Shown here piece by piece: positions 200 to 57,473 of a stretch of DNA of 64,000 nucleotides; position 1 is the first letter of the stretch; every line of letters starts with the position of its first letter. Source of the stretch: [Clostridium] celerecrescens 18A (GTDB lineage Bacteria > Bacillota > Clostridia > Lachnospirales > Lachnospiraceae); assembly GCF_002797975.1 (NCBI RefSeq), contig NZ_PGET01000001.1, positions 3,851,501 through 3,915,500 of the forward strand, read 5' to 3'. A program made the position numbers and the translations under genes. Under the pieces are notes generated by a model. That model made no database searches. It was not told the origin of the DNA and saw only the letters and a list, made by a program, of their open reading frames with translations.

Positions 200-916
200 C
201 TACAGCAGTGCAACGATTCCGGCGATTGCCATGAGTCCATACACGCACATGCTCATAGTCTTTCGGTCAATCCGCGCCACCAGCTTGCTGCCCCAGGCAC
301 TTCCTGCCAATATCGCTATAATCCCAATAGCCATATAGGGAACCAGATCCTCGGTCAGGAATCCGTTGGAAATCCTGGCGATGATGTTAAAAACCACAGT
401 AATGGAAAAAAATGCATTTATTGTGCCCAGATACTCCTCTTTCGAATCCAGGACAGCCAGATAATAAAGGCTCATAGGCGGACCGCTGATCCCAAAAAAA
501 CCGCCGCATATGCCGGCCGTCAGCCCGCAGGCTGCCCCTATTAACAGCGACGGCTTTACTCTGGCTTTCCCCGAAAAAAAGAAAAAGTAAACAGCCAGCC
601 CTATGAGAAACAGGCCAAAAATCCCTTTTCGCTTACCGGCATCAAAATAGGCGGACCAGTGAATGACTATGGTACTGGCCGCCAGATAGATCCCCGCTGG
701 AAGGAGAATCGGCTTTATCCTTACCGACTTCCGGTACCGCCAGAACATAGAAAAGGACAGGATCATGGTAATCACATCACTTAAAGCCGGGGCCGCATTC
801 ATGGACAGGATAAGGGGAAGAAAGATCATGATGATGATCGCACCTCCAAAGCCTGTTACCGCCTGGACGAGTCCTCCTAGAAGAGCTGAAAAAGCCACAA
901 CCAATATTCCTATCAT
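200..916 (-). CDS. TSUP-family (TauE/SafE) anion exporter, distal copy
   Basis: A 238-residue hydrophobic protein with about eight membrane helices and the two-fold TSUP repeat, with glycine-rich motifs GFGGAI near residue 22 and GGFFGISGPP near residue 138. The family moves sulfite, sulfoacetate, sulfolactate, taurine and related organic anions across the cytoplasmic membrane. I chose the ATG at 916 because AAAGGAGG precedes it; the longer frame from 1027 lacks such a site and would add a non-homologous leader. It is the last complete gene of the cluster, just after a second TSUP gene. The pair could export an end product such as a C3 sulfonate (inference). Substrate cannot be read from the sequence. 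Confidence 0.85.
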   Translation of the reverse strand: MIGILVVAFSALLGGLVQAVTGFGGAIIIMIFLPLILSMNAAPALSDVITMILSFSMFWRYRKSVRIKPILLPAGIYLAASTIVIHWSAYFDAGKRKGIFGLFLIGLAVYFFFFSGKARVKPSLLIGAACGLTAGICGGFFGISGPPMSLYYLAVLDSKEEYLGTINAFFSITVVFNIIARISNGFLTEDLVPYMAIGIIAILAGSAWGSKLVARIDRKTMSMCVYGLMAIAGIVALL

Positions 917-989
917 CAAAGCCTCCTTTCCTGATTCCGTGCAACAAAAAGAGCTGAAGCGAACCGTATCCGCAAGCAGCCCTGACGGT

Positions 990-1784
990 TTACATAAATT
1001 GATAAATATTATATATATTAATTCCAATAATGACTACCATCAAAAACAGGAACAGCTTGTCCACTACCTTCTCATCAATCCTTTTATTAATCACCCGGCC
1101 GCTCATTCCGCCTAAGATCCCTCCTATCACCATGAGGACCAAAAGCCAGACGGAAAATTCCGGGACCGTTCCTGTCACCAGGGAATTCAAAAGTCCTGTG
1201 ATCTGGGAAAACAGGATGATGTAAAGGGAATTCTGGGCGGCTGCCTTCGTATCCATGGAAAAGAAGAAAAACAGCACCACCAGATTGATGGGCCCACCTC
1301 CGATTCCTAAAAATGAAGAAAGGATCCCAAGCACCAGTCCGATCGGCACACAAATAACCGGATTTGTCACATGATGAGTATGGATTTTGTCCTTTTTAAT
1401 CGTATAGATCAGCGTTCCCAGAGTGATCACCAGAAGACAGGCCGCCTGAACAGCTCCAACCATATCCTTATCTGCAAACAGGGAAGAGACTGCCTGGAAC
1501 ATGGACTTTCCCACAACTCCTCCAATGGCCGCCCCTATGGCAAGAGGCGTACCGGTCTTCATATCCACCAGGGACTCTCCGCTCATTTTCCCTTTGATTA
1601 CAGAATAACAGGTCATTGCAAGCACAGTGCAGCCTGACAGAAAGCTTATAGCAGATACGCTTAAAACCCCAAATGCATCCAATGTAGGCTTAATGATAAC
1701 GCCTCCGCCAATTCCGCAGATGGCGCCTGCAATGGATGCGCCAAAACTGATCAATAGAAACAATCCATACAAATAACCGCTCAT
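990..1784 (-). CDS. TSUP-family (TauE/SafE) anion exporter, proximal copy
   Basis: About 264 residues with eight or so membrane segments. The paired TSUP signature appears twice: GIGGGVIIKP near the N-terminus and FLGIGGGPINLVV in the middle. Two starts are possible: the ATG at 1784 (GAGGAAGG 11 bases upstream), used here because it matches the family N-terminus, and an ATG at 1820 that overlaps the stop of the deacetylase gene and has AAGGAAGAG before it. Either way it is translationally close-coupled to the deacetylase. It differs clearly in sequence from the next TSUP gene, so the two are not a recent duplication and could form a heteromeric or dual-substrate export system. Confidence 0.85.
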   Translation of the reverse strand: MSGYLYGLFLLISFGASIAGAICGIGGGVIIKPTLDAFGVLSVSAISFLSGCTVLAMTCYSVIKGKMSGESLVDMKTGTPLAIGAAIGGVVGKSMFQAVSSLFADKDMVGAVQAACLLVITLGTLIYTIKKDKIHTHHVTNPVICVPIGLVLGILSSFLGIGGGPINLVVLFFFFSMDTKAAAQNSLYIILFSQITGLLNSLVTGTVPEFSVWLLVLMVIGGILGGMSGRVINKRIDEKVVDKLFLFLMVVIIGINIYNIYQFM

Positions 1785-1810
1785 TTTATCAAAATCCTTC
1801 CTCGCCGGTA

Positions 1811-2956
1811 TTAGCGGCATTCTCTTCCTTGTACATATGTCTTAAGAACATTGCATGCTTCATCAAGTACCACCAGGTTCGCTTTTTTTCCCACCTCAAT
1901 GGAACCCATCCTGTCATAAACACCGATCAGCTTTGCCGGATTTTCTGTAAGAAGCCGTAGTACTTCCGCAAGAGGCTTTCCCGTAAATTCCAGAAGATTC
2001 TTTAATGCGGCTCCCATGGTCAAAGTGCTTCCTGCCCGGCTTCCTCCGCAAGCCAGTCTGGCATCTCCGTTCTCCACAATAACATCATTTACTCCCAGCT
2101 TATAATTCCCATCCGGAAGCCCTGCTGCCATAATGGAATCCGTCACAACCACCACCTGGTCCAGTCCCTTGGTCTTGATGATCAGCCGGACCGTTCCAGG
2201 ATGGAGATGACGTCCGTCACAGATGATTTCACAAAATACCTTGTCAGACTCAAGCACAGCACCCCAGATTGCTGGAAAATGCTGGTGCAGAAGCTTCATG
2301 GCATTTCCCGTGTGGGTGGCGCCTCTGGCGCCCGCCTCAATGGCCGCACACGCGGTTTCGTAATCAGCTCCGGAATGGCCGATAGCCACCTGGATTCCAA
2401 GCTTCTTTAATTCCGGGATCATGGGAATACTGCCCTCAAGTTCAGGTGACAATGTGATATATTTGACATCACCCTCTGCCGCTTTCTGATATTCCTTAAT
2501 GAGTTCCAAATCCCCTTCCCGAAGCAGGTGCTCCGGCATGGCTCCTTTATATTCCGGTGACAGAAAAGGGCCTTCCAAATGGATTCCTAAAAGTTCCGCT
2601 CCCTGATGCTCTCTGGTTTTCCATTTTTTATATTCTTCTATGCACCAAAGGGTCTGCTCCTTTGTATCCGTAAGCACTGACCCCAGCCAGGCCGTCGTCC
2701 CCTGGGCGGCAAAAAAGCGGCAGATTGTTTCATAATCCTCCGCTGTCGCCTTGTTCACATCGACCCCTGCGGCTCCATGGGTATGTATATCGATAAATCC
2801 CGGAACCACCAGCTTTCCTTCCATATCATAAACAACGGCTTCATCCCCGTTGTGAACTCCTGTTATCTCCCGTATTACTCCATCCTCTGCCAGCAAGTCT
2901 CCCAAAACAAAGGCGTTATTAACATAAAACCGCCCGTTTCTGAATAATGTTTTCAT
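1811..2956 (-). CDS. nagA: NagA-family N-acetylhexosamine deacetylase with altered phosphate site
   Basis: A 381-residue amidohydrolase of the N-acetylglucosamine-6-phosphate deacetylase family, usual length. Metal and catalytic residues are present: HTH at 58-60, E128 in HLEGPF, H194, H215 and D273 in VTDS. The segment that reads AMPxLxHREPG in typical NagA is AMKLLHQHFPA here (219-229), so the arginine that binds the 6-phosphate (R227 in E. coli) becomes H226 and the adjacent acid becomes F227. THLFNAM is also changed to THTGNAM. The reaction is therefore probably removal of an N-acyl group from an amino sugar, but perhaps not from GlcNAc-6-phosphate. It has its own promoter and a LacI-type operator upstream, and the TSUP genes follow directly. 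Confidence 0.85.
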   Translation of the reverse strand: MKTLFRNGRFYVNNAFVLGDLLAEDGVIREITGVHNGDEAVVYDMEGKLVVPGFIDIHTHGAAGVDVNKATAEDYETICRFFAAQGTTAWLGSVLTDTKEQTLWCIEEYKKWKTREHQGAELLGIHLEGPFLSPEYKGAMPEHLLREGDLELIKEYQKAAEGDVKYITLSPELEGSIPMIPELKKLGIQVAIGHSGADYETACAAIEAGARGATHTGNAMKLLHQHFPAIWGAVLESDKVFCEIICDGRHLHPGTVRLIIKTKGLDQVVVVTDSIMAAGLPDGNYKLGVNDVIVENGDARLACGGSRAGSTLTMGAALKNLLEFTGKPLAEVLRLLTENPAKLIGVYDRMGSIEVGKKANLVVLDEACNVLKTYVQGRECR

Positions 2957-3011
2957 AAAAATTCCCCTTTCTCATTCTTCAGACCGCCGCTTTTTCTTAC
3001 GATATGCTTTT

Positions 3012-3041
3012 ATCATATCATAATTCGACCAAAAACTCCAA
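3012..3041 (-). promoter_or_regulatory. promoter of the nagA-TSUP unit
   Basis: On the minus strand TTGGAG (3036-3041) and TATGAT (3012-3017) are separated by 18 bp, about 55 bp before the nagA start. The palindrome at 3049-3064 lies just upstream of the -35 box. Confidence 0.5.
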
Positions 3042-3046
3042 TTTAT

Positions 3047-3730
3047 TTAACCAAACGTTTGCTCCTCAAATAAATGGGACAAATTTAATTCCCTGATAAT
3101 GGAGACGATCTCCTTTGACCTGCTGCAACCAAATTTTCTTAAAAGGCTTTTTATCTGGGTCTTGACGGTTATGACTTCCACACAGCGGATTCCCGCAATT
3201 TCCTTTATTTTCCTGTCCTCTAAAAGAAGCTTCACCAGCTCCCGCTCCGCGGCAGTCAGCTGGGAAACATTATTAATAAAGTATAACAGGCTCCGCTCCG
3301 AACGCTGCAGCCTTTTGTATTCGTTCATAATGGTATTCTGTATTCTTGCTTCCATCACCGGCTTTCCCATGTGGGCATTTTTAACATGTTCGATCAGATT
3401 TTCTATTGCTCCGCCTTTTACAACATAATCCACAGCCCCGGTCCCCATAGCAGTAATGATGATGTCCTCGGTCTCGTGAACGGTCAGATAGATGATCTTC
3501 TGGTCATGCTTTATATCCCTTATGTGCTCGGCGGCCAGAATCCCGGCATTTCTGGATTCCATCTCAATGTCCATCAGGATCACATCTGCATCCATTTTAA
3601 GGGCCATTTCCACGATATCCTTTCCTGTGGAGGCGCAGCCAATTACCTTTATCTCTTCATCCCTTTCCAGCTGCTTTTTTAAATCATCACAAAGTATGGT
3701 AAAATCCTCTGCAATCAGCACCTTTATCAT
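3047..3730 (-). CDS. response regulator, receiver plus LuxR/NarL-type HTH
   Basis: 227 residues. The N-terminal receiver (1-120) has the acidic pair E8/D9, phospho-acceptor D54 in ILMDIEME and K105 in YVVKGG. After a helical linker the C-terminal part (about 155-215) has a LuxR-like helix-turn-helix with TAAERELVKLLLEDRKIKEI and VKTQIKSLLRKFG. The gene follows the histidine kinase with a 14-bp gap, so the two form a cognate pair. They sit between the ABC transporter and the deacetylase, which suggests that they sense a substrate or metabolite of this island. The HTH is divergent from classical NarL. The start ATG has GGAAGGGG upstream. Confidence 0.85.
   Translation of the reverse strand: MIKVLIAEDFTILCDDLKKQLERDEEIKVIGCASTGKDIVEMALKMDADVILMDIEMESRNAGILAAEHIRDIKHDQKIIYLTVHETEDIIITAMGTGAVDYVVKGGAIENLIEHVKNAHMGKPVMEARIQNTIMNEYKRLQRSERSLLYFINNVSQLTAAERELVKLLLEDRKIKEIAGIRCVEVITVKTQIKSLLRKFGCSRSKEIVSIIRELNLSHLFEEQTFG
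3049..3064. promoter_or_regulatory. LacI-type operator overlapping the end of the response-regulator gene
   Basis: The core CCAAACGTTTG is identical to the core of the perfect palindrome at 15125-15140, with 12 of 16 positions shared. It covers the last codons and stop of the response-regulator gene and lies about 95 bp before nagA. It may bring the nagA-TSUP unit under the same LacI protein, or act as a CcpA-like cre site. Confidence 0.5.
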
Positions 3731-3744
3731 CTTATTCCCCTTCC

Positions 3745-5244
3745 TTACTCATCCTGGTTTTTACACTTCGGTATCGCGACAAAAAAGGTGGCCCCTTCTC
3801 CCTCCGTACTTTCTAATTTCAGCATTCCAAAATGGTGTTTTATGATCTGTCTCACATAATATAGCCCAAGTCCCCAATTATTATTGGTATTCTTACTGGT
3901 ATAGAACGGATCAAATATTTTTTTCTGTACCTGCCTGGATATGCCCCTTCCATTATCCTGGATCTCAAAGGTCACATAAAGCCTTTCATGGTATACCTTT
4001 ATGCTCAAGTGTTTTTCCTGCCTGCCTGATTCCAGGATGCTTTCATAGCCATTGATCGCCAGATTATACAGGGCTTCGCTTAAATGAACCGCGTCCGCCA
4101 GGATCAATGTCCTGGCTTCTATCTCCGTTTCCACCTCTACCTCCGGATATTTCTCATGAAATCGGTCCAGAACCTTACGGACCACTTCTGAAGTTTCCGT
4201 GGGTACCAGAGTCATGTAATTGGATTTAATACTTTTATATAATTCTTCCATTCGGATTATCATATTCTGATTGATGGTTTCAAGCATATGGGAATATTCC
4301 AGGAGCTTTTCCTTTTCAGGATCGGTCTTTTCCAGTTCCTCTCTGATCCTTTCCTGGATGACCCGGTTTGACAATAACTGATTCTTCATGCCATGGACAA
4401 ACACGGAAAGGCCTTTGCTTGCCATATCCATCTTCTTTTGGATAATGACATCTCCCCTGGTCTCCTCATGCTCCATAACCGTATAGGACTTAAGGCTTAA
4501 AAATCCCAGAATTCCAAACAGCGTGGTAACCACTGAAAGTACCATCCACCGGCTGACAGCCCCCGTCGTAGAATAAAGCAGCCCGCCATAGCGCATATAC
4601 TCTGCGGAATACATCTGATATACCTGAATCGGGTCCTGGCGGAAATAAAAGCAATACATAATTCCCATACAGATCAGAAACACCATAATATAGCGGAACT
4701 GTCTTTTGCAGTAAGGGATGGTAATGCTTTTGTATTCGTGAATCAGGAGCCATAAAGCCGCAGCCAGATAACAGGCGATCCACAAAATTGTGAAATTAAT
4801 AACCAGAAACTGCAGCCATTTTCCCGTTTTTGCAAGCCCTAAAAACAGGGATGGATAGTAGAGAATCAGTGTCATACAGGGCAGCAACATAATCAGGATA
4901 TGCCTGGATTTGCTTCGCAGGATCCATGGAATCATGGAATAATCAAAGGCAAGCATAAGCAGAAATCCCGGAAACAGGGTTCTTCCCATAGCGATCATAT
5001 ACCCCAGCTTCCTTAATGGAAATATCATATAGGACAATTTTCTTTGTATCCTTAAATCAAAAAACAAGAAGAACTTCTGCCCGGTCTGCAGCCCGCCTGT
5101 CTTTGATAAGTAAATGATAATCCCGATGAACATGCAGACAAAGCTGACGCAAAGCCCCAGCATCAGTTTTGTCTGTTTATCTCTTCTAAGGAAAAAAATC
5201 GCTATAGAGGAGGATAAAATAAAGAACAATACAACAAACAGCAT
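3745..5244 (-). CDS. membrane sensor histidine kinase
   Basis: About 499 residues. The N-terminal half has roughly seven hydrophobic segments (to about residue 250) and no large extracellular loop, so the signal is probably sensed in the membrane or cytosol. The phospho-acceptor lies in FVHGMKNQL (H284). A HATPase domain follows, with an N-box containing ALYNLAINGYESIL, then DNGRGIS and NWGLGLYYVRQII. The ATG at 5244 is chosen because AGGAGG lies 5 bases before it; the longer frame starts at 5319 with an ATG that itself overlaps a Shine-Dalgarno-like GGAGG. It is followed closely by its response regulator and preceded by the binding-protein gene. Confidence 0.85.
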   Translation of the reverse strand: MLFVVLFFILSSSIAIFFLRRDKQTKLMLGLCVSFVCMFIGIIIYLSKTGGLQTGQKFFLFFDLRIQRKLSYMIFPLRKLGYMIAMGRTLFPGFLLMLAFDYSMIPWILRSKSRHILIMLLPCMTLILYYPSLFLGLAKTGKWLQFLVINFTILWIACYLAAALWLLIHEYKSITIPYCKRQFRYIMVFLICMGIMYCFYFRQDPIQVYQMYSAEYMRYGGLLYSTTGAVSRWMVLSVVTTLFGILGFLSLKSYTVMEHEETRGDVIIQKKMDMASKGLSVFVHGMKNQLLSNRVIQERIREELEKTDPEKEKLLEYSHMLETINQNMIIRMEELYKSIKSNYMTLVPTETSEVVRKVLDRFHEKYPEVEVETEIEARTLILADAVHLSEALYNLAINGYESILESGRQEKHLSIKVYHERLYVTFEIQDNGRGISRQVQKKIFDPFYTSKNTNNNWGLGLYYVRQIIKHHFGMLKLESTEGEGATFFVAIPKCKNQDE

Positions 5245-5332
5245 AGCTTCCTCCTGAATCATTCTGAAATCCCAGTGCGCCACAAATGGAGGTGTCCCGT
5301 TATTCCCGGATACCTCCATTTAAATTTACTAA

Positions 5333-6427
5333 TTATTTGTGGTTCTCATCATATGCTTCCTGCATGATATCAAAGAGTACATAATTATTTACATCTACCG
5401 GCTTTTCCAGACGGCCTGCGTCTAAGAATACCTTCTGCTGGTTCTCATAATAGGATTTAATGGTTCCGTCCGCCAGGGCTTTTCCCATAAATTCTCCGGT
5501 CAGCCAGTTTCCTTCTTCCGTAGTTGCCAGCATGGTGGCTTCATCAACCTCACACTGTTTTGCTACCAGCTTTGCGACTTCATCGATGTTCTCCGCCCGG
5601 TAATCCCCGGCTTTTTGAAGAGCTCTGGCAAAGCGCACCAAAACATCATGGTTGGAATCAGCATATTTCTGGGTAGTGATAAAGCTGGAAGGAAATGTAA
5701 CCTGATCTAAATAATCCTGATTATTTGCTAACATGATTCCATTGTCTCCAAGAGCCTTCATGATAGTCCCGGTTCCTGGTGACCAGGTGGCACATGCATC
5801 CACATTGCCGCTGATGACGGCTGATACGGTGCCGTTGGCATCCATTTCCACCAGCTCAACATCATCTGTCGTCATTCCCTTAGACTTAAGAGCCAGGTTC
5901 AGGATGATTTCTGCAGATGTACCGCTGGTAACGGCAACCTTTTTGCCCTTTAGATCTTCAATGGTATTGATCCCTTTTGCCTTGTTGCCGATGACTGCAT
6001 CGGCTAAGCTGGTGCAGTCTATCTGAAAGATCACCGCTTCCCCTGATGCACAAAGGGCGTGGGCTCCGTGTCCGATCTGGGAAATATCAATATCACCGGA
6101 AGCCATGGCTGCAATTTCGGCTGGACCTCCCTGAAATTCCACCATTTCCACTTCCAGACCCATTTCCTTAAAATAGCCTTTATCCCTTGCCGTAACGGCC
6201 AGAGAAGCGCTTCCCATATTGGGCATATAGGCAATCCTAAGCTTTGTGATTTCCTGAGCCTTGGTTTCCTCTGCCTTGGTTTCCTCTGCTTTTGTTTCCT
6301 CTGCTTTCGTCTCCTCTGCTTTCGTCTGTGCCGCCGTAGTTGCAGGCGTCTTTGCTCCGCCCGCACATGCGGTCAAAGCCGCTGCCGTCATTACCATCCC
6401 CATAAGTAACGAAATTCTTTTTTTCAT
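5333..6427 (-). CDS. ABC transporter binding lipoprotein, SsuA/TauA (NMT1) type
   Basis: 364 residues with a lipoprotein signal peptide ending in LTAC (C21), a repetitive acidic-lysine linker (35-60) and an NMT1/SsuA-like fold starting LRIAYMPNMGSASLAVTARD. Segments such as DIDISQIGHGAHA and DLKGKKVAVTSGTSAE are typical of binding proteins for alkanesulfonates, taurine, nitrate and similar small anions; sugar binding proteins belong to other families. It is the third gene of an importer operon (permease, ATPase, binding protein). Its presence inside a sugar-enzyme cluster is the main clue that the substrate carries a sulfonate or similar anionic group. Substrate is inferred only. Confidence 0.88.
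   Translation of the reverse strand: MKKRISLLMGMVMTAAALTACAGGAKTPATTAAQTKAEETKAEETKAEETKAEETKAQEITKLRIAYMPNMGSASLAVTARDKGYFKEMGLEVEMVEFQGGPAEIAAMASGDIDISQIGHGAHALCASGEAVIFQIDCTSLADAVIGNKAKGINTIEDLKGKKVAVTSGTSAEIILNLALKSKGMTTDDVELVEMDANGTVSAVISGNVDACATWSPGTGTIMKALGDNGIMLANNQDYLDQVTFPSSFITTQKYADSNHDVLVRFARALQKAGDYRAENIDEVAKLVAKQCEVDEATMLATTEEGNWLTGEFMGKALADGTIKSYYENQQKVFLDAGRLEKPVDVNNYVLFDIMQEAYDENHK
6258..6332 (-). repeat. 15-bp tandem repeat in the lipoprotein linker
   Basis: Five head-to-tail 15-bp units encode repeats of the pentapeptide ETKAE between the lipobox and the binding domain. The first two units are identical and the rest diverge slightly. Such repeats change copy number by slippage and would vary the tether length in steps of five residues without a frameshift. 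Confidence 0.85.
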
Positions 6428-6440
6428 TCCTTTCTCCTCC

Positions 6441-7232
6441 TTATTTCCTGATCTCTAAATATTCCTGATACACCTGAGACCATATGTAATTTTTTAATTC
6501 TAAAAATTCCGGTGTCATCTTTGTTTCCTGATTTCTGGGATATGGAATCCCGATCTCCACAATCTCTTTAATCCGCCCTGGCCTGGCGCTCATAATGATG
6601 ACCTTTTGAGCCAGAATAATGGCCTCATCCACGTCATGAGTGATGAAAAAGCATGTTTTACGTTCTTTCTGCCAGGTAGCTAAAAGCTCTGACTGAAGCT
6701 GGGTCCTGGTCTGGGCATCCAGTGCTCCAAAAGGCTCATCCATGAGAAGCACCTGGGGATTTACCGCATAGGCTCTGGCTATGGCAACCCTCTGTTTCAT
6801 TCCGCCGGACAGTTCCTTTGGATAGGCGCCCGCAAAAGGTTCCAGATCCACCATTCTTAAATATTTCATGGCCTCTTCCCTTGCCTGCTCCCCTTTTATG
6901 CCTTTTAGCTTTAAGCCGAATTCCACATTTTTAAGTACCGTAAGCCATGGAAACAAGGCGTACTGCTGGAACACTACCCCCCGCTCCGGTCCCGGGCCCT
7001 CTACCACCTTGCCATCCACGTATACGTTTCCTGAGGTAGGCTCCAAAAGTCCGGCGATGATATTGAGCAGAGTTGACTTTCCGCAGCCTGATGGGCCTAC
7101 CACACAGATAAACTCATTCTCTTTTATGTCAAGGCTGACTCCGTTTAAGGCTGTCATCTCTCCTTTGCGGGTATTATATGTTTTTACCACATGATCAATT
7201 TTTACTTTTATTGCTGCATTGTCTCCTGCCAT
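6441..7232 (-). CDS. ABC transporter ATPase, SsuB/TauB type
   Basis: 263 residues, a complete ABC ATPase. Walker A is GPSGCGKST (46-54), the signature is LSGGMKQRVAIARA and Walker B is VLLMDEPFGALD, followed by the switch histidine in FITHDVDEAI. The family pattern (FPWLTVLKNVEFGL) is that of nitrate/sulfonate/taurine importers. The gene overlaps the end of the permease gene by 25 bp and is followed after 13 bp by the binding-protein gene, so the three are translationally coupled and form one importer. Confidence 0.92.
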   Translation of the reverse strand: MAGDNAAIKVKIDHVVKTYNTRKGEMTALNGVSLDIKENEFICVVGPSGCGKSTLLNIIAGLLEPTSGNVYVDGKVVEGPGPERGVVFQQYALFPWLTVLKNVEFGLKLKGIKGEQAREEAMKYLRMVDLEPFAGAYPKELSGGMKQRVAIARAYAVNPQVLLMDEPFGALDAQTRTQLQSELLATWQKERKTCFFITHDVDEAIILAQKVIIMSARPGRIKEIVEIGIPYPRNQETKMTPEFLELKNYIWSQVYQEYLEIRK

Positions 7233-8005: not shown

Positions 8006-8038
8006 TTCCCTCTCTGTCTTTTTCTAATGTTTTATTAT

Positions 8039-8051
8039 GTGTAGTTTACAC
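8039..8051. promoter_or_regulatory. small palindrome before the transporter genes
   Basis: GTGTA and TACAC flank a 3-bp centre 34 bp before the permease start. It could be a regulator site for the transporter genes, for instance for the clustered response regulator. No clear -35/-10 pair was found next to it. Confidence 0.3.
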
Positions 8052-8084
8052 CCAAAAAAAAGATCTGGGGAGGGGGATTTTTTA

Positions 8085-9347
8085 TCATACCTTTTTTCCC
8101 AAGGCGCTAAACATGCTCCTCTTATATTCCTCCACCCCTTCCTGGTCAAAGGGGTTTATGTTCATCATGGTTCCTGAAATCCCACATGCCATCATAAAAT
8201 AATAAAACAGTTCTCCAAAGGTTTCCTCCGAAATATTTTTTGACAGGAAACGGATGCAGGGCACCCCGCCCCTCCAGTGGGCATTCAGAGTGGCTTCCTC
8301 AGCCGCCTTGTTTATCTGGTCAAAATCCATACCATTCAGATAGTCAAAGCCATCCCTAAAATCCGGATCAGGCGCAATAACCGCCTCTGCGCCGGGATTC
8401 TCTGCTGAGACAAAGGTTTCCATCAGGCTGCGTCTTCCCTCCTGCATATATTGGCCGATGGAATGCAAGTCCTCCGAATAAATTGCTGAGGAAGGAAAAA
8501 TTCCCTTTTTCTCTTTTCCCTCACTTTCTCCAAAAAGCTGCACCCACCATTTTGTCAGATAAGAATACCGGGGTTCAAAGGATACCAGCATCTCAATATC
8601 ATATCCCCTCTCATATAACAGGTTTCTGGCTGCCCCGTAAAGTACCGCAGGGTTGGAAGATGGATTGGCCCGGCAGTCCTCTGCGGCCCTCTTCATCCCG
8701 GCAAGATACATGTCCGGATCAAGCCCTGCTGCCGCTATGGGCAAGAGGCAGACCGGAGAAAATGCGGAGTACCGCCCTCCTACTGATGTGGGAAAGGAAA
8801 GAAACAGATAACCGTTTTCTTTTGCGATTCCCTCCAGCCTGGAACCTTTCGTACCAGTCACAATGATCCGCTTTGCCATCTCCTCTCTATCATACCTCTT
8901 CTTCATCCACTGGCGTAGGATGCGGAAATGGCTTCCCGGCTCCAGTGTCTCAAAATTCTTGGCAATGACATTGATATAAACATTCCGTCCCTCCATCCGC
9001 TTTAACATTTTGCTGACGGAATAAGGAGACAGCGTATTTCCCATATAAAGGATCTCCGGCCCCTTCCCGTCTGCCAGTGCCTCTATCATAGCCCTGGCTG
9101 CCTGGTTGGATCCCCCTACTCCCACAAGAACAAAAAGGTCACCCTCTCTTTTGATCTCCTCTGCCTTTGCCTTTATCGCCTCCAGCTCATCATCCAAAAT
9201 AGCCGGGGAAACCCAGCCCAGAACTTTCTCATGGTCCTCCATGGTAAGGAACCTGCTCAAAGCCATTCCTGCCTTTTCCCTGCTGACCTTAAAATCTTCT
9301 TCCTTAAAATATGTTTCTGCCTTTTTCAAATCTATTGTAACGTTCAT
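8085..9347 (-). CDS. glucose-6-phosphate isomerase family protein with altered phosphate loop
   Basis: 420 residues, close to the Firmicutes GPI length. The SIS-fold hallmarks GVGGS (76-80), VGGRYSAFSP (189-198) and GESEGK...GIFPSS followed by DLHSIGQYMQEG are conserved. The sugar-phosphate loop that normally reads ISKSGTTTEP is IAKNFETLEP (128-137): both phosphate-binding serines are lost and a glutamate is introduced. The enzyme should still interconvert an aldose and a ketose, but on a substrate that may lack a 6-phosphate, for example 6-deoxy-6-sulfoglucose (inference). The start at 9347 is preceded by GGAGGG; the longer frame is not used. It follows a terminator-like hairpin after the aldolase gene. 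Confidence 0.85.
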   Translation of the reverse strand: MNVTIDLKKAETYFKEEDFKVSREKAGMALSRFLTMEDHEKVLGWVSPAILDDELEAIKAKAEEIKREGDLFVLVGVGGSNQAARAMIEALADGKGPEILYMGNTLSPYSVSKMLKRMEGRNVYINVIAKNFETLEPGSHFRILRQWMKKRYDREEMAKRIIVTGTKGSRLEGIAKENGYLFLSFPTSVGGRYSAFSPVCLLPIAAAGLDPDMYLAGMKRAAEDCRANPSSNPAVLYGAARNLLYERGYDIEMLVSFEPRYSYLTKWWVQLFGESEGKEKKGIFPSSAIYSEDLHSIGQYMQEGRRSLMETFVSAENPGAEAVIAPDPDFRDGFDYLNGMDFDQINKAAEEATLNAHWRGGVPCIRFLSKNISEETFGELFYYFMMACGISGTMMNINPFDQEGVEEYKRSMFSALGKKV

Positions 9348-9363
9348 GCTTTCCCTCCATTTC

Positions 9364-9400
9364 AAAAAGGCCGATCCAGATCTTTCTCTGAACCGGCTTT
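9364..9400 (-). terminator. terminator-like hairpin between aldolase and GPI-family genes
   Basis: On the minus strand a 14-bp stem with one mismatch and two G-U pairs (arms 9387-9400 and 9367-9380) is followed by a U-tract. It lies in the 56-bp gap between two genes of the same cluster, so it probably reduces rather than abolishes downstream transcription. Confidence 0.65.
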
Positions 9401-9403
9401 TTT

Positions 9404-10567
9404 TTATAGCCATTTATCAATTTTTTTATAGCGCTCTGCCATCTCATCAATGGTCACACATTCAACCAGCGAAGCCCTCCCGTAGGAGCCGAACTTTATG
9501 ATCAGGGTTCCTACCACTTCCTTTACTCCCCGCTCCACGCAGTCCACAATGGCAGCTACATCCTCATCGGGGATGGTTCCGTACATTACCGTATCCATAA
9601 TGGGAGGCAGAAATACCCTGGGATCAAAAGTTTCCTTCATTGTCTCCAGCCGCTCATAAATGGCGCCGATTGACCCGCTGTTCCTCTTTTCCGGATACTT
9701 TTCAAAGAATTCCTTCATGTTCCTGGTAACAGCAAGACGGATATCCGTATCCACGTTAATCTTATTGATTCCTGCTAAAATGGCAGCCGTAAGCTGTTCC
9801 ATGGATATTCCTTCGGTACCTGACAGCTTTCCTCCAAGACCATTGATCTCATCTACGATGTATTTCGGCACGGTGGAGGAGCCATGAGAAACCAGGGCGC
9901 CGAAAATTCCCAGATGATTCATGCATTCCCTGATGGCAATTACAATCTCCCTGCGCAGCTTTACATCCTTTCCCTTAGAAGCCCCGTGCATGGTGCCATA
10001 GGATATCGCAAGGGCGTCAACGCCGGTTTTCTGGAAGAACTCCACAGCATCCAGTGGATTGGTATATGTGGAAGAATCAGAAAATACGTGATCTTCCACG
10101 CCGGCAAGCACTCCCAGTTCCCCTTCTACGCTGACTCCTCTGCCATGGGCATACTTTACCACTTCCCTGGTAAGCTCTATGTTCTCTTTAAACGACAGGG
10201 AAGAACCGTCAATCATGACGGAAGTATAACCTCCTTCGATGGCAGCCACGCAGGAATCAAAGTCTCTGCCGTGATCTAAATGGAGGACAATAGGGATTTC
10301 AGAATCCATACCGTATTTTTTTACCGCATTTCCTATATTTCTTGCTCCGGCCTTTTTATCTTCCAGGGTTGCATTCAGAAAATCAATTCGTCCTCCCATG
10401 AATCCATTTGCCAGATCCGCCCCCTGCAAAATGGCAGGGGAACGAAACATTTCGTGTACTTCGATTACTGCTTTGGCCTGGGCGACCGCATTCACGTTAA
10501 AGCCGCCCTGCCCAAAGCCATATTTTATGGAGGCCTCCATAAGAGGTCTAAGTGGTATTAAGCTCAT
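9404..10567 (-). CDS. class II fructose-bisphosphate aldolase family protein
   Basis: 387 residues, a zinc-dependent class II aldolase. Visible active-site features are LDHG with D98/H99, the glutamate of VEGELG (about 148-151), H194 in GTMHGASKG, H228 in SHGSST and NVDTD at 271-275. The dihydroxyacetone-phosphate loop, usually HGGSG, is HGSST, keeping the first glycine and the serine, so a ketose 1-phosphate could still be bound. An extended C-terminal region (about 320-387) follows FDPRVFLPP. In the proposed scheme it would split the phosphorylated ketose into DHAP and a C3 aldehyde. SD AGGAG precedes the ATG. The NagB-family gene lies 16 bp upstream. Confidence 0.88.
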   Translation of the reverse strand: MSLIPLRPLMEASIKYGFGQGGFNVNAVAQAKAVIEVHEMFRSPAILQGADLANGFMGGRIDFLNATLEDKKAGARNIGNAVKKYGMDSEIPIVLHLDHGRDFDSCVAAIEGGYTSVMIDGSSLSFKENIELTREVVKYAHGRGVSVEGELGVLAGVEDHVFSDSSTYTNPLDAVEFFQKTGVDALAISYGTMHGASKGKDVKLRREIVIAIRECMNHLGIFGALVSHGSSTVPKYIVDEINGLGGKLSGTEGISMEQLTAAILAGINKINVDTDIRLAVTRNMKEFFEKYPEKRNSGSIGAIYERLETMKETFDPRVFLPPIMDTVMYGTIPDEDVAAIVDCVERGVKEVVGTLIIKFGSYGRASLVECVTIDEMAERYKKIDKWL

Positions 10568-10582
10568 CTGTTTCTCCTATAT

Positions 10583-11404
10583 TCAATCGGTTAAGGCTGC
10601 TACAAATTCTGTAAACGTAAGGGTGATATCCGGATGGTTTTGCAAAAGGCTTACAGGGAATTCCGTGGTCGGCTCACCGTATCCGGCCCTCCGTACCACG
10701 GCTCTGTGCCAGTTACGAAAGCAGCCCAGGCGGATTTTTCCTGCATGTGCGATCTCATGGATTCCGACTGTGACGCAGTAAGAGGGCATATCCTCCAGAG
10801 CTCCGTTAAAATCGCCGATGGCATTGGCTGCCCTTGTTTCCGGACTTATTTTTAAAACCCTTGTCTTCTGGGCCAGAAATTCCTCTGCCCTTAAGGTCCC
10901 GTCCGCCTCGTTAAACGCCACATGGCCGTTAATGCCGATGCCTCCAAAGACCATGTCCACACCTCCAAGCCTTTCAATCAGCTCAGGAATATAAGAGAGG
11001 TTGTCCGGGTCAGGAAATATTCTCTGCTCCCCTGGCATTATTAGCTCCGGCCTGATTTTAGAATAAACGTTTCTGTCCATAAATCCCCGAAAGCTTAAGG
11101 GGTGATCCATAGAGATCCACCTTTTTTCATCATCCAGGTATTCGTCCATATTTATGAACCAAACATTCTTTAAGCTTAAATTTTCCTCATTCACCATTTC
11201 CACAAAGTAAGGATACTGGCCAACGGGTCCTACCGGACAGATGAATACGGTCCTTTCTCCCCTGGCATTATGGCTTTTTATCTCCTCCGCCATCTGCTCA
11301 GCCATCTGACGGAACACCTCGCTGTTATCCTTCATACAAAACAGCTTCATCTTCGGATTCTTCAAAAGGGCTTCCTTATCGTATCTGTAATATTCATGCT
11401 TCAT
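10583..11404 (-). CDS. NagB-family deaminase/isomerase with altered phosphate loop
   Basis: 273 residues of the glucosamine-6-phosphate deaminase/6-phosphogluconolactonase fold. Kept features are MDEY (86-89, general base aspartate), GHVAFNE (160-166, the catalytic histidine and glutamate) and TRAANA (190-195). Changed features are the phosphate loop, normally PTGGTP or similar, here CPVGPVGQYP (56-65); the aspartate of the GIGxDGH motif, here N159; and the region of the phosphate-binding lysine (SQKA in E. coli), here RNWH. It probably deaminates an amino sugar to a ketose but not necessarily a 6-phosphate. It lies between the LarA-family and aldolase genes, with 12- and 15-bp gaps. Confidence 0.82.
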   Translation of the reverse strand: MKHEYYRYDKEALLKNPKMKLFCMKDNSEVFRQMAEQMAEEIKSHNARGERTVFICPVGPVGQYPYFVEMVNEENLSLKNVWFINMDEYLDDEKRWISMDHPLSFRGFMDRNVYSKIRPELIMPGEQRIFPDPDNLSYIPELIERLGGVDMVFGGIGINGHVAFNEADGTLRAEEFLAQKTRVLKISPETRAANAIGDFNGALEDMPSYCVTVGIHEIAHAGKIRLGCFRNWHRAVVRRAGYGEPTTEFPVSLLQNHPDITLTFTEFVAALTD

Positions 11405-11416
11405 GTGAATTCCCCC

Positions 11417-12910
11417 TTATTTATGATGATGAGCCATACAGCCACAATCCTCATGCCCTTTTCCGCCAGGAGTCTCCCCCTTCATCATCAGATGGACCGC
11501 ACTCAGCTTAAAGGTCTGGGGAAGCACCAGAATGTTAGGATTTGCTCCCACAAATTTCTTCTTTGCATCCTCCAGGGCCTCTTCCACCGTAGCTCTGGTC
11601 TTTAATCCCATGCCACGGGCATAACCAGGATCCTGGGCTCCGCATAGGTAAATGGCTGAGGTATTCATCTCGGCAACATGGGCGCAGCTGATCATGGAAA
11701 AACCATGGAAGGGATGAAAGGCATTGCAGTAACGGTATTTCCTGATATACTCTTCATCTGTGGCAAAATATTCTCCGTAGCGGTTCATATCCGGCAGAGT
11801 ATTCATCTGGTCATGCTGGAACATCTCATACATTTCTCTTAAATACGGCCAAAGCTCGTCATGGAAATAACCGTTGCAGGTGGAGGTGAAAATGATGACG
11901 CAGTTATCACTCATGATCCTCTTATGGCGGATCACCTGGGCGGAAATGGCCTGCATCAGCATGATAGGGTTGGTTCCCATTCCGTCCCCGTAATGGAAAA
12001 ACTGGGGCATACCGAAAATCATCACATCGTATTTCTTTTCCGCCCAAGGAACGTAAGTGCGCTTATCAGCCGTAATCCAGGAGTGGGGCTGCATTACAGC
12101 CGCATACCCGCTGTTGATCTCGATCTGGCGGGATTTTGTATCCAGAACCGCATCACAGCAGAAAAATTTCTTTCCCATACATGTTTCCATATACTGCCCG
12201 ATCTCGTCAAACTTTGTCCTCATAAGGGATTTTCCGCTTACAGGAGTGAAATCTGCCCGGTGCATGACCTCCGGCACGTGGTGGGAGGCAATGGAACGCC
12301 AATGGGTGATTCCTGTGGAACAGTGCTTATAGCCGCCGGAATAGCCGCCGTATGGGTTTCCCTGGGTGTGCCCGATGAGGATCGCCACATCACTGTCGTA
12401 CACGTATTTGTTCATCAGAACCGGATCGCCCCGGTCCGTTGTCCCAAGATCCACCAGATGATCGTAATCCTCGCTGTCGTGGTTGATGATCTGATGAGTG
12501 TACCAGAACTCATGGAACAGTTCATTCCCGAGCACGGCCCTGATCTCCTTTTCCGTATTCTTTCTGTGGAGACCGTTGGAGCAGATCAAAAGGATGTCCT
12601 TCTTTTCCACACCCGCTTCATATAATTCTTTTAAAATAAGTTTTATGGAAATTTTCCTGTGAGAGGTAGGCTGTTCTCCTCCCTTTACCCGGTCGGGAAA
12701 TACAATGGTTACTTTCGAGCCCTTGTGGGCCAGCTTTGAAAGCGGCTCCATGCCCATGGGATTTCGTAAGGATTCAAGAGTCTTTTCCTCCAGCTGATCC
12801 TCCGGAATATAAGGCGGATCCGGTACTGTCTCCCCCGGAATAAATATATCCGCAGTATCGGGCAATGTGACGTTTACGGTTCCCTGTCCATACTCTAATG
12901 CTACATTCAT
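11417..12910 (-). CDS. LarA-family nickel-pincer racemase/epimerase
   Basis: 497 residues of the lactate racemase (DUF2088) family, somewhat longer than LarA (about 425). Equivalents of the LarA active-site residues are seen: D73 in FPDR, H115 in NGLHR, H181 in GHTQ, the cofactor-attaching lysine K195 in SGGYKH, and H210/H211. LarA enzymes carry a nickel pyridinium dithio nucleotide and move a hydride at a hydroxyl-bearing carbon; relatives act on several 2-hydroxy acids and on gluconate. The C-terminus ends CGCMAHHHK, a probable metal-binding tail. No larB, larC or larE cofactor genes are in the window. In this operon it may invert a chiral hydroxyl of the C3 product or of the sugar (inference). 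Confidence 0.82.
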   Translation of the reverse strand: MNVALEYGQGTVNVTLPDTADIFIPGETVPDPPYIPEDQLEEKTLESLRNPMGMEPLSKLAHKGSKVTIVFPDRVKGGEQPTSHRKISIKLILKELYEAGVEKKDILLICSNGLHRKNTEKEIRAVLGNELFHEFWYTHQIINHDSEDYDHLVDLGTTDRGDPVLMNKYVYDSDVAILIGHTQGNPYGGYSGGYKHCSTGITHWRSIASHHVPEVMHRADFTPVSGKSLMRTKFDEIGQYMETCMGKKFFCCDAVLDTKSRQIEINSGYAAVMQPHSWITADKRTYVPWAEKKYDVMIFGMPQFFHYGDGMGTNPIMLMQAISAQVIRHKRIMSDNCVIIFTSTCNGYFHDELWPYLREMYEMFQHDQMNTLPDMNRYGEYFATDEEYIRKYRYCNAFHPFHGFSMISCAHVAEMNTSAIYLCGAQDPGYARGMGLKTRATVEEALEDAKKKFVGANPNILVLPQTFKLSAVHLMMKGETPGGKGHEDCGCMAHHHK

Positions 12911-12957
12911 CTTACACGTCTCCTTTTCTCCAATTTTGTTTACGAATGAATCTGACC

Positions 12958-13800
12958 CTATTTTCCTAAATAGGCCTCTATGATCTCTAAATATTCCTCA
13001 GGATAAAAACCGATCTCCCCCTGGAATCTGGTCAGGGCGATCAGTCCTCCGTCAATGACTGGAATGGAAGCCAGCATCTTAGCATTGTCAGCCTTTAGTC
13101 CTCCGCCGTAGACCACCGGAAGCCCTCCGGTCACTTCTTTGATATAAGAACCGGTCCTGGCTATATACTCTTTATCCGGCGGAGTTTTCCCCGGTCCAAT
13201 GGCCCATACCGGCTCATAGGCGATGACTACTCCCCCAGTGTCCACACCAAATAATCCGGTCTCAAGCTGCTCCTTTAATACTTCCTGCCAGTGTGGCTGT
13301 TCCTCTGCAGTTTCCCCAATGCAGTAAAGCACGGACAGTCCTGCCTTAAGCGCCTGTAAAACCTCCTGATTCAGCAGGCGGTTAACCGCATGGGAGTCGG
13401 TCACTCCTGCTTCCGAAAGAATCCCTGCCTTGTCCCTTCGTTCTTCACAATGGCCGATGATGGTGGTGGTACAGCCAATGGCTTTTGCTGCGTTTGCCGT
13501 ACGGTTCGTAGTAAAGGCTCCAAAATTTCCGCCTGCTGCGGTATCCTCACGGAACACTCCCTGACAGCCGATGTTCACCGGGCTGTTTTCCCCCAAAGCA
13601 CCTGCCGCCTGGATCAAATGGGCTTCAGGAAAATACATGGAAAAATCCACGTCATCATTCTCATACTTTCTTAAAGCTTCCTGGGTGTTTGATACAATAT
13701 AGCTTCCCCACTCCCGGACAGGCGCTATAGAATTTACGCCGCCCTTTTCCCGGGGAATATCAAACCGCTTTAAATTTAAAAAAATATGCTTCATTTTCAT
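12958..13800 (-). CDS. triosephosphate isomerase family protein with altered phosphate loops
   Basis: 280 residues (TIM is about 250). The catalytic residues are kept: N9 and K11 in NLK, H117 in IIGHCEE, E196 in AYEPVW, and flexible loop 6 VWAIGPGKTP. The two loops that hold the phosphate are changed: YGGSV is YGGGL (231-235), losing the serine, and the LVGGAS segment is LIALTR (253-258), replacing the double glycine and adding an arginine. The enzyme should isomerise a C3 or C4 hydroxy-aldehyde to the ketone but may recognise an anion other than phosphate, perhaps a sulfonate (inference). It lies 33 bp after the kinase gene. SD GGGAGG precedes the ATG. Confidence 0.82.
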   Translation of the reverse strand: MKMKHIFLNLKRFDIPREKGGVNSIAPVREWGSYIVSNTQEALRKYENDDVDFSMYFPEAHLIQAAGALGENSPVNIGCQGVFREDTAAGGNFGAFTTNRTANAAKAIGCTTTIIGHCEERRDKAGILSEAGVTDSHAVNRLLNQEVLQALKAGLSVLYCIGETAEEQPHWQEVLKEQLETGLFGVDTGGVVIAYEPVWAIGPGKTPPDKEYIARTGSYIKEVTGGLPVVYGGGLKADNAKMLASIPVIDGGLIALTRFQGEIGFYPEEYLEIIEAYLGK

Positions 13801-13833
13801 TATCCTCCCTTTTTTATCTTAATTTCACCAATT

Positions 13834-15006
13834 TTATATATTTTCATGAAAATCTATGAAATCCCTTAGTTCCGGGCCGATCAGTGGACGGCACCATTTT
13901 ATGAACTCATTGGTCACGTCGTTTCCACGCTCATTAATAAAGCTTTCCGGAATGGCTCTTTCATGGAGCATGACCTTTTCAATGGGAATCCGTTCCATAT
14001 GGATGCAGTATTCTCCATCCAACTTGTCCTCCCGGATAAAGCCGATCATCACTCCGCCCTCGCCTTCCATGGCCGCTTTTAAGGCTTCCCGCCCTGCAAG
14101 TACGGCCTCCTCCCGATCAACCGGGGACTGCCATGCAATGGAGGAACGTCCGCAGATTCCAGGTTTTTCGCTTCTGGCCTTAATATCCAGCTTTTGAATC
14201 ACCAGATTGGCAAGATAGGCGCTTACATCTCCGTAATAGGTTGCCCGTCCGGTCTTGTAGATCGGGGGAACCACCGGCCTTCCATCTTCCCCTTTTAAGC
14301 CTTCGCTGGCAACCACGACCACGCCGCCCTTTTCTTCATAAAGCTTCTTCACATCCGCTAAAAATTCCTCTTCCTTAAACGGACGCTCCGGCAGATAAAT
14401 CAGATGGGGTGCATCTCCCGGCTTTTTACGGGCAAGGGCCGAAGCTGCCGTGACCCAGCCTGCATTTCTTCCCATGGCCTCAATTACGCATACGTGGATG
14501 GGCAGGGATTTTACATCCATTCCAACCTCTGCAGTGGTAGCTGCAATGTACCTGGCCGCACTGCCAAATCCAGGGGTGTGATCGGTAATTGCAATATCAT
14601 TATCAATGGTCTTGGGAATCCCAACCACCGTAACTCCCGACTTTCTGCAGGCTTCATGAATCTTTCCGCAGGTATCCATGGTTCCATTGCCTCCGTTAAG
14701 AAGAACATACCTGATATGATATTTCTCAAATATGGCCGGCATGGCCTCATAATCCTCCTTCTCCAGGGCGTACCTGGAGGAGCCAATGGCCGTAGCAGGG
14801 GTTTCCAAAAGAAGACTGAGCCTTTCCTCCGGAAACTCCATGAGATCCAGAAAATTCTCTTTTAAAATCCCTTCACTGCCGCCCAGTGCAGCATATACTT
14901 TATCAACCTTTTTGCTTTCCCTGGCCTCTTTGATCACACCGTAAAGAGATGAATTGATAACCGCAGTTGGACCGCCTCCATGTACCACCAGAACATTGCC
15001 ATTCAT
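13834..15006 (-). CDS. 6-phosphofructokinase family protein (PPi/ATP type undecided)
   Basis: About 390 residues from the ATG at 15006, where the family N-terminus (MNGNVLVVHGGGPTAVINSS) begins; the frame also extends to a TTG at 15054, and the SD AAGGAG is rather far (13 bases) from 15006. The donor loop is GGNGTMD (105-111) rather than GGDGS or GGDDS, PKTIDND (131-137) supplies the catalytic aspartate, and EAMGRNAGW (176-184) matches the sugar-binding MGR motif. The ending NERGNDVTNEFIKWCRPLIG resembles the longer PPi-PFK-like group. It is the first gene of the cluster, directly behind the LacI operator, and would phosphorylate the ketose at C1 before aldol cleavage. Confidence 0.82.
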   Translation of the reverse strand: MNGNVLVVHGGGPTAVINSSLYGVIKEARESKKVDKVYAALGGSEGILKENFLDLMEFPEERLSLLLETPATAIGSSRYALEKEDYEAMPAIFEKYHIRYVLLNGGNGTMDTCGKIHEACRKSGVTVVGIPKTIDNDIAITDHTPGFGSAARYIAATTAEVGMDVKSLPIHVCVIEAMGRNAGWVTAASALARKKPGDAPHLIYLPERPFKEEEFLADVKKLYEEKGGVVVVASEGLKGEDGRPVVPPIYKTGRATYYGDVSAYLANLVIQKLDIKARSEKPGICGRSSIAWQSPVDREEAVLAGREALKAAMEGEGGVMIGFIREDKLDGEYCIHMERIPIEKVMLHERAIPESFINERGNDVTNEFIKWCRPLIGPELRDFIDFHENI

Positions 15007-15124
15007 ATGTTTGATCCACTCTCCTTCTCGTAAAAACATTTCACTGTTTCTCAACGGAACCCGCCGGTCTTCCGTCCTTATGTTATAAGCGTACCATATT
15101 CTCCTCCGGATTTGTGCAAATTTT

Positions 15125-15140
15125 ACCCAAACGTTTGGGT
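15125..15140. promoter_or_regulatory. perfect 16-bp LacI-family operator
   Basis: ACCCAAACGTTTGGGT is a perfect palindrome with the central CG typical of LacI-family operators. It lies in the divergent region between the kinase gene (-) and the LacI gene (+), about 120 bp from the former and 73 bp before the latter. A plus-strand TATACT follows at 15148-15153. It probably serves both the catabolic operon and autoregulation. Confidence 0.8.
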
Positions 15141-34080: not shown

Positions 34081-34094
34081 AATTCATACTCCTT

Positions 34095-34925: not shown

Positions 34926-34936
34926 AATTCTCCTCC

Positions 34937-35842: not shown

Positions 35843-35905
35843 GCAGACCCTCCGTATTTCTTTGTCAAGCGATATACTCAATCCGCTTCACCACTTGATT
35901 CGGCT

Positions 35906-35940
35906 AAAAAGGGGGAGGCGCTTTAAAAGCCTGCCTCCCC
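35906..35940 (-). terminator. intra-operon terminator/stabiliser hairpin after the binding-protein gene
   Basis: GGGGAGGC and GCCTCCCC arms (35912-35919, 35933-35940) followed by U's on the minus strand. Partial termination here would yield more binding protein than permease, as in many sugar operons. Confidence 0.6.
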
Positions 35941-35948
35941 AGCCCTTC

Positions 35949-37286: not shown

Positions 37287-37336
37287 TTTGTTACCTCCCT
37301 TTGATTAGTCAGTTTATATAGTTAAAACTGAATTTA

Positions 37337-37389: not shown

Positions 37390-37439
37390 CATCTATATTA
37401 CATAGACTAATGTGATAGGTACATGGTGTTTTGTTATAT

Positions 37440-54990: not shown

Positions 54991-54994
54991 CTGA

Positions 54995-55804: not shown

Positions 55805-55816
55805 CAGTCGGCCCTC

Positions 55817-57456: not shown

Positions 57457-57473
57457 CAGCCTGTGTGTATTAT

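Follow-up and report, generated by a model that had tools for sequence, protein, structure and literature searches.

A candidate parallel glycolysis for sugars with a sulfur-bearing C6 substituent, encoded by a nickel-linked operon of [Clostridium] celerecrescens 18A

In this work we analyzed a stretch of 64,000 nucleotides (the window, C1:3851501-3915500, contig NZ_PGET01000001.1) of the 5.27 Mb single-contig genome of [Clostridium] celerecrescens 18A. It contains an operon of 14 genes on the minus strand (window 200-15054), which extends from a PFK gene (15054) to the gene of an exporter of the TauE/SafE (TSUP) family (200) and whose neighbouring genes overlap or lie less than 100 bp apart. 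That this operon encodes a parallel Embden-Meyerhof route for sugars with a sulfur-bearing substituent at C6, sulfate and sulfonate taken jointly, is well supported. As a narrower and still tentative reading, we propose a LacI-controlled, nickel-linked route for hexoses and N-acetylhexosamines that would carry an O-sulfate at C6. The strongest statistical link to sulfur is the proximity of TSUP genes to the operon's LarA-like gene. TSUP genes were mapped in 33 LarA-bearing genomes, and in 16 of these one stands no more than 12 kb from LarA, as compared to 0.57 expected from the TSUP number and the size of each genome. The first-pass annotation of the window had proposed parallel upper-glycolysis genes that act on an (amino)hexose with a sulfur-bearing group at C6, together with export by TSUP proteins, and this linkage supports it.

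From the sequence we infer the substrates and reactions of the route as follows, including the roles of the TIM- and LarA-like enzymes and the fate of the C3 compound. Sugars such as N-acetylglucosamine (GlcNAc)-6-sulfate and glucose-6-sulfate, and mannose-6-sulfate in those loci that have a ManA-like gene (L004, L031, L033, L097 and L140; 62 bits, cut-off 116), would be taken up through the Tau/Ssu-type ABC system. GlcNAc-6-sulfate would be deacetylated by the NagA-like enzyme and deaminated by the NagB-like enzyme to fructose-6-sulfate, which glucose-6-sulfate would join via the GPI-like isomerase. The PFK-like kinase would then phosphorylate C1, and the class II aldolase would split the product into dihydroxyacetone phosphate (DHAP), which could enter ordinary glycolysis, and glyceraldehyde-3-sulfate. 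The C3-sulfate would be processed further by the TIM-like isomerase together with the nickel-pincer LarA-like enzyme, and the TSUP proteins would export the sulfur anion. The features concerned, by window coordinate, are:

200 to 1027, minus strand: TSUP1, TauE/SafE-family exporter (PF01925, 85 bits; cut-off 32.6)
990 to 1820, minus strand: TSUP2, TauE/SafE-family exporter (PF01925, 102 bits; cut-off 32.6)
1811 to 2956, minus strand: NagA-like deacetylase (TIGR00221, 314.9 bits; NCBI cut-off 225.65)
3047 to 3730, minus strand: response regulator (open reading frame; labelled homologues)
3052 to 3061, no strand: palindrome CAAACGTTTG (3' end of the response regulator gene), 96 bp before NagA-TSUP2-TSUP1
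3745 to 5319, minus strand: sensor histidine kinase (open reading frame; labelled homologues)
5333 to 6427, minus strand: solute-binding lipoprotein, SsuA/TauA/NMT1-type (matched in the PDB, at E 2e-14 to 4e-12, by proteins that bind taurine, sulfonates or nitrate)
6441 to 7232, minus strand: ABC transporter ATPase, Tau/Ssu type (open reading frame; labelled homologues)
7208 to 8005, minus strand: ABC transporter permease, Tau/Ssu type (open reading frame; labelled homologues)
8085 to 9413, minus strand: GPI-like isomerase (family match and alignment)
9404 to 10567, minus strand: class II aldolase of 387 amino acids with a C-terminal extension (PF01116, 238 bits)
10583 to 11404, minus strand: NagB-like deaminase (101.7 bits; cut-off 236.9)
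11417 to 12910, minus strand: LarA-like nickel-pincer enzyme, single-His/Asn185 subfamily (structures 9q2u and 9q3j, LarA_Bw/LarA_Sp)
12958 to 13800, minus strand: TIM-like isomerase (Pfam and alignment)
13834 to 15054, minus strand: PFK-like sugar kinase, PPi-PFK subfamily (PRK14072, 420 bits)
15125 to 15140, no strand: ACCCAAACGTTTGGGT palindrome between PFK and LacI (0.03 expected with at most 2 mismatches), conserved in homologous loci
15213 to 16235, plus strand: divergent LacI-family regulator (Pfam/NCBIfam)

The gene set, strand, coordinates and divergent LacI gene given by the first-pass annotation were all recovered. Pfam and NCBIfam assign the families TauE/SafE (twice), NagA, PGI, class II aldolase, NagB-like, Lar_N, TIM, PFK and LacI, whereas the response regulator, the histidine kinase, the ATPase and the permease were named by eye from their translations and have labelled homologues in related loci. 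PFK and aldolase both score above their subfamily cut-offs and are, by family, candidates for a ketose 1-kinase and a DHAP-forming aldolase. Further TIM, NagB, NagA and PGI copies are encoded elsewhere in the genome, the operon versions being extra copies.

To compare these enzymes with their relatives, the genomes were scanned with an alignment of TIM, and the best 80 of 201 relatives, mostly from Lachnospiraceae, were taken as loci; one of them, a Lacrimispora celerecrescens contig (L028), matches the window TIM at 96% over residues 57-280. Residues were counted only in rows of at least 85% of the length of the window protein, by which short open reading frames were dropped for LarA (2), GPI (2), NagA (1) and TIM (1). 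With the window protein included, this left 80 rows for TIM (the window and 79 loci), 36 for NagB, 39 for NagA and 15 for GPI. The catalytic residues are kept in every row: K11, H117 and E196 in TIM, D87, H161 and E166 in NagB, H215, E128 and D273 in NagA, and E298, H317 and K431 in GPI.

The canonical phosphate-binding residues of the four enzymes are replaced, near-invariantly so among the homologues at the positions given here. In TIM, loop 6 (AIGPGK) is kept, and S211, G232 and G233, which we take to be the phosphate contacts, have become G, A and L; relative to the genome's other copy K236 and R258 are new, K236 being present in 80/80 rows and R258 in 79/80 (one gap). Five distant TIM homologues have the same pattern with the Lys kept and R or, in one of them, K at position 258. 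The invariant K236/R258 pair suggests, at the level of sequence, that the pocket binds an anion. NagB has CPVGPVG where the phosphate loop normally stands, and, of its FRNWHR motif, R230, W232 and R234 are present in all 36 rows. The GPI phosphate loop, SKSGTTTEP in the genome's other copy, reads AKNFETLEP, and its A, K, N and F are kept in 15/15. NagA has HQH in 39/39, with an Arg to His change, as compared to HHRE in the B. subtilis structure and HHRD in the genome's other copy. The pocket change of NagA appears milder, because this protein exceeds its NCBI cut-off and because one of its changed positions, 217, varies among homologues. Altered phosphate sites, as claimed initially, are found in all four enzymes relative to the genome copies, with the qualification that NagA is changed less and the GPI loop is only partly different. 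The exchange of D141 to N in NagB is an ordinary one, since the genome's other NagB has Asn there too.

These pockets bear on the idea that the enzymes act on ordinary 6-phospho sugars and that the operon duplicates GlcNAc catabolism redundantly. NagA above its NCBI cut-off and PFK and aldolase above their subfamily cut-offs agree with it, but phosphate-site residues are lost near-invariantly in NagB, GPI and TIM, the operon contains no sugar kinase or phosphotransferase system (PTS), and TSUP genes are linked to LarA. We give this idea very little credence.

The LarA-like protein gives full-length matches to the LarA_Bw and LarA_Sp structures (851-869 bits). It has the features of the single-histidine subfamily, namely one of the two catalytic His residues retained, the second replaced by Asn, and the lysine for the nickel-pincer nucleotide (NPN); H115, N185, K195, H306 and Y307 are present in 69/69 rows. 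This subfamily was described in 2025 with the Asn replacement and no assigned substrate, and lactate racemisation by LarA_Sp was not detected (PMC12611868). Its authors saw glycolysis-like neighbours and proposed a role in carbohydrate metabolism only, and among the papers listed for single-His LarA none goes beyond this article on its function. In some homologous loci LarB, LarC and LarE genes, for NPN cofactor supply, lie near the operon. Among plasmids, LarA has no match at E 1e-40.

At E 1e-60, LarA is found in 25 of 298 genomes of the family and in 9 of 398 of the phylum, the window genome being included in each count. Open reading frames in the 80 loci were labelled by identity thresholds, and contig ends cut many loci; the resulting counts are TIM 80, LarA 70, PFK 61, aldolase 52, LacI 43, NagA 39, NagB 35, binding protein 34, ATPase 32, permease 31, histidine kinase 17, response regulator 17, TSUP2 16, GPI 16 and TSUP1 2. 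In the distant genomes of L140, L142, L143 and L145, PFK, aldolase, TIM, LarA and TSUP still stand together. Co-occurrence of the altered homologues, for which a genome search had been suggested, was thus found: the PFK-TIM-LarA-aldolase set recurs in many Lachnospiraceae and beyond.

Some loci hold further genes beside this set. In L109 (G113), TIM-LarA-TSUP stand in line with 2-oxoacid/acetoin dehydrogenase-like genes and a Tau-type importer (by eye). In L141 (G329), LarA-TIM lie near an arylsulfotransferase-family gene (PF05935) and DapA- and Tct-like genes (by eye), and PFK was not recognised in that stretch. A DUF4838-type protein, possibly an uncharacterised glycosidase, is encoded in or next to the operon at L003:14553-16430 and L116:4550-6409 (both by Pfam) and at the right end of L119 (by similarity).

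CAAACGTTTG and ACCCAAACGTTTGGGT are each a probable LacI operator. The 80 loci contain 75 copies of CAAACGTTTG, spread over 60 of them; 74 of the copies are found no more than 400 bp before the start of an open reading frame, and 61 (in 55 loci) precede a core gene. As a control, six 10-mers were counted in the same loci: five occur 0-5 times, and AAACGTTTGC, which overlaps the operator itself, 22 times. Across the window genome CAAACGTTTG is not enriched (6 sites as compared to 9 for the control). Two of these six sites are in the operon, before PFK and before NagA, and another is located 222 bp before a gene whose product resembles the binding protein NikA (144 bits, cut-off 393). L024 shows the same arrangement, which would fit a need for nickel.

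As to the nature of the sulfur group, sulfatases cleave sulfate esters, not sulfonates. A TSUP gene lies at most 391 bp from the anaerobic sulfatase maturase gene (anSME) in 4 of 19 anSME matches, two of which are below the cut-off, while 0.06 would be expected within 2 kb. Three of these four TSUPs were examined and are TSUP2-like (64-78%); the fourth is that of G167. Six TSUP regions (L166-L171) were picked by hand for a TSUP near a sulfatase or, in L171 (G127), for a TSUP 27 kb from LarA, and as such they show that the pairing exists, not how frequent it is. Five of the six combine a TSUP2-like gene (60-78% to the best reference) with a sulfatase or anSME, a combination not found in L170. 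In L166-L169 the TSUP2-like genes lie away from LarA, beside sulfatases or anSME. L171 has a maturase gene followed by a TSUP2-NagA pair, whose NagA is 77% identical to the best reference. CAAACGTTTG precedes the TSUP2-like gene both here and in L168, where that gene is on another contig than LarA. In a tree with good support for 12 of its 32 inner branches, the sulfatase- and anSME-linked TSUP2s intermix with those of the operons and form no separate clade.

Of the 80 loci, 15 have sulfatase clusters, 7 of these sharing a single gene order, and 7 loci have anSME. In L061 a sulfatase gene stands in line with CUT1, aldolase-2, SIS, TSUP-like, PFK, TIM and LarA genes, and sulfatase genes are in line with core genes in Lacrimispora amygdalina-type loci as well. 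L119 (G167) unites genes of the glycoside hydrolase (GH) families GH29, GH20 and GH2, the glycosidases being mucin-type, with a sulfatase, two tandem LarA, TIM, PFK, aldolase, NagA and NagB in one cluster. According to PMC11659886, 6S-GlcNAc is set free by GH20 sulfoglycosidases, and the sulfated glycan sugars include 6S-Man. Mainly because of the links of TSUP and NagA to anSME, O-sulfate is probably to be favoured over sulfonate. Of the original sulfo-sugar idea, the sulfur substituent is retained on the strength of the TSUP-LarA linkage, while its sulfonate form is less supported in view of TSUP2/NagA beside the maturase and of the glycosidases and sulfatase of L119.

In the sulfonate version, sugars such as sulfoquinovose and sulfoquinovosamine would pass through the same steps to DHAP and sulfolactaldehyde, TIM and LarA would act on the C3-sulfonate, and TSUP would export a C3-sulfonate or sulfite. 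We regard it as rather unlikely, although it can claim the Tau/Ssu type of the importer, an SftI-like isomerase that adjoins the operon, a gene of the GlcNAc_2-epim family, to which E. coli YihS belongs, in 3 of the 80 loci (cluster c32), and genes in L036, L038, L039 and L116 that look FSA/TalC-like by eye. Furthermore, 17 of the 33 genomes have no anSME match, and TauE is the probable 3-sulfopropionate exporter of E. gilvus (PMC11489063). What speaks against it are the ties of TSUP and NagA to sulfatase maturation, the mucin-type glycosidases of L119, the failure to recognise a sulfoquinovosidase or sulfolactaldehyde reductase among the 14 genes of the window operon, four of which were named by eye, and the greater frequency of amino-sugar genes in the 80 loci (NagA 39 and NagB 35, as compared to GPI 16), even though sulfoquinovosamine is rare in nature.

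Several observations weigh against the O-sulfate route. PF00884 (sulfatase) counts near LarA are lower bounds among the matches listed: at least 4 of 25 genomes have such a gene within 20 kb, as compared to 1.7 expected (P=0.08, not significant), and at least 2 within 10 kb, as compared to 0.9. With this P value, sulfatase enrichment near LarA was dropped as proof of O-sulfate. GH20 was likewise dropped as a marker, being found in 9 of the 33 genomes and not in that of the window. The anSME search (E 1e-40) that found no match in 17 genomes leaves without one ten of the 16 genomes with a TSUP near LarA (G018, G051, G082, G113, G155, G230, G241, G526, G548 and G592); G215 gave only a short, weak match, and in G051 and G264 no PF00884 is among the matches listed. 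In such genomes sulfur would therefore have to leave without a matured sulfatase, or as a C3 compound. To the same side belong the relatives of the importer, which handle taurine, sulfonates or nitrate, Glu155 of the GPI-like protein, which sits in the former phosphate loop and is odd for an anion, and the failure to find CAAACGTTTG in L061, L119, L166, L167 and L169.

The same holds for two features of a second gene set on the operon's strand, left of the window (L091:10389-19612), which encodes an SftI-like isomerase, a LacI protein, a binding protein, a sulfatase, two permeases, a second class II aldolase and a GlmD-like SIS protein. The isomerase adjoining the operon is nearest to the sulfoquinovose isomerase SftI (219 bits, cut-off 700), and the set has no CAAACGTTTG site, so that this search gives no support for co-regulation with the operon. 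Its sulfatase, by contrast, counts in favour of the O-sulfate route. The gene is embedded in the CUT1 importer set; the protein is of the Cys type, without visible signal peptide, and its top PDB match is a GlcNAc-6-sulfatase, tied with a putative sulfatase.

Sulfatases without visible signal peptide (by eye), which occur in some loci, would suit a scheme in which a sulfatase strips the sulfate first and the enzymes act on GlcNAc, glucose, fructose and glyceraldehyde with a free C6 hydroxyl, phosphorylating C1 only. A ketohexokinase-family gene that accompanies sulfatase, aldolase, TIM and LarA in one gene order, and the Glu in the GPI loop, would suit it too. Other Nag and glycolytic enzymes already exist in the genome, however, the invariant Lys/Arg and intact loop 6 of TIM disagree with this scheme, and operons are present in genomes without a sulfatase or anSME match; it seems improbable to us.

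A C6-carboxylate (uronate or N-acetylhexosaminuronate) might also be carried through such a glycolysis, in which the aldolase would yield tartronate semialdehyde, the TIM-like protein would isomerise hydroxypyruvate and LarA would racemise glycerate. The latter reaction is known from other LarA groups (PMC11770544), TIM's place in L144 is taken by a gene that comes closest to tartronate-semialdehyde reductase, with a score below cut-off, and in L141 and L144 LarA, in L141 with TIM, lies near TctABC- and DapA-like genes (by eye). Against this stand the links to TSUP, to the Tau/Ssu-type importer and to anSME, the arylsulfotransferase-family gene of L141 and the single-His LarA_Sp without lactate racemisation (PMC12611868), and we consider a carboxylate very improbable.

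Returning to the C6-O-sulfate route, its last steps could proceed without any sulfatase, a speculative variant to which we attach a low probability. The TIM-like enzyme would form the enediolate of glyceraldehyde-3-sulfate or dihydroxyacetone sulfate, from which sulfate would be beta-eliminated to give methylglyoxal; LarA would convert this to lactate, and TSUP would export sulfate. The single-His LarA would use one base and the hydride-carrying nickel-pincer cofactor for an internal redox shift from methylglyoxal to lactate. Such a desulfation would account for the joint occurrence of TIM, LarA and TSUP in genomes that have no sulfatase maturase, and it would explain how LarA can work with a single catalytic His. 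The intact loop 6 of TIM argues against it, as this loop shields the enediolate in normal TIM.

Elsewhere in the window, a UshA-like 5'-nucleotidase gene adjoins a phosphonate-type ABC transporter with two permeases and a PhnD-like binding protein (53473-58622), next to a LacI gene at 58629 (by eye). At 31864-39678 a GH4-like glycosidase gene is divergent from genes for an AraC regulator, a CUT1 importer and a GH36-like protein (by eye).

Mucin and glycosaminoglycans commonly contain sulfated amino sugars, and the ability of bacteria to use these is usually ascribed to sulfatases. If the route exists, a dedicated glycolysis in which the sulfo group is carried along from step to step would add a new catabolic strategy to the Lachnospiraceae, a family with many gut bacteria. 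The single-histidine LarA enzymes, whose structures were described in 2025, would thereby gain a pathway and candidate substrates, and CAAACGTTTG offers a testable regulon for locating further parts. Among the papers listed for sulfoglycolysis, sulfoglucosamine or sulfoquinovosamine, GlcNAc-6-sulfate, glucose- or fructose-6-sulfate and C3-sulfates, with subscription papers and preprints mostly outside the search, none names such a pathway in its title or the opening of its abstract, and a search of PMC13096917 by terms found nothing of the kind.

Among known systems, sulfo-EMP of E. coli (YihS/YihV/YihT/YihU) likewise isomerises, phosphorylates C1 and cleaves to DHAP and a sulfur-bearing C3 compound (PMC12890257). 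The operon differs in using homologues of NagA, NagB, GPI, PFK, class II fructose-bisphosphate aldolase and TIM, in its amino-sugar entry and nickel enzyme, in a substituent that is probably O-sulfate, and in that sulfoquinovosidase and sulfolactaldehyde reductase were not recognised in the cluster. YihS, YihV and YihT belong to other enzyme families than the proteins of the operon. With sulfo-TAL (SqvD/SftI, SqvA/SftT) it shares the adjoining SftI-like isomerase and, in a few homologous loci, FSA/TalC-like genes (by eye); a TauE exporter is also part of the E. gilvus cluster (PMC11489063). In contrast to sulfo-TAL, the window has a kinase and an aldolase but no transaldolase, and here, too, sulfolactaldehyde reductase and sulfoquinovosidase were not recognised. 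GlcNAc catabolism by NagA-NagB resembles the proposed route in enzyme families and reaction order, but the operon is without a kinase or PTS and its phosphate-site residues are replaced. The LarA_Bw/LarA_Sp subfamily shares Asn185, H115, H306 and Y307 as well as the glycolysis-like neighbours (PMC12611868); the links of single-His LarA to TSUP, to the palindrome and to sulfatase maturation come from the present work.

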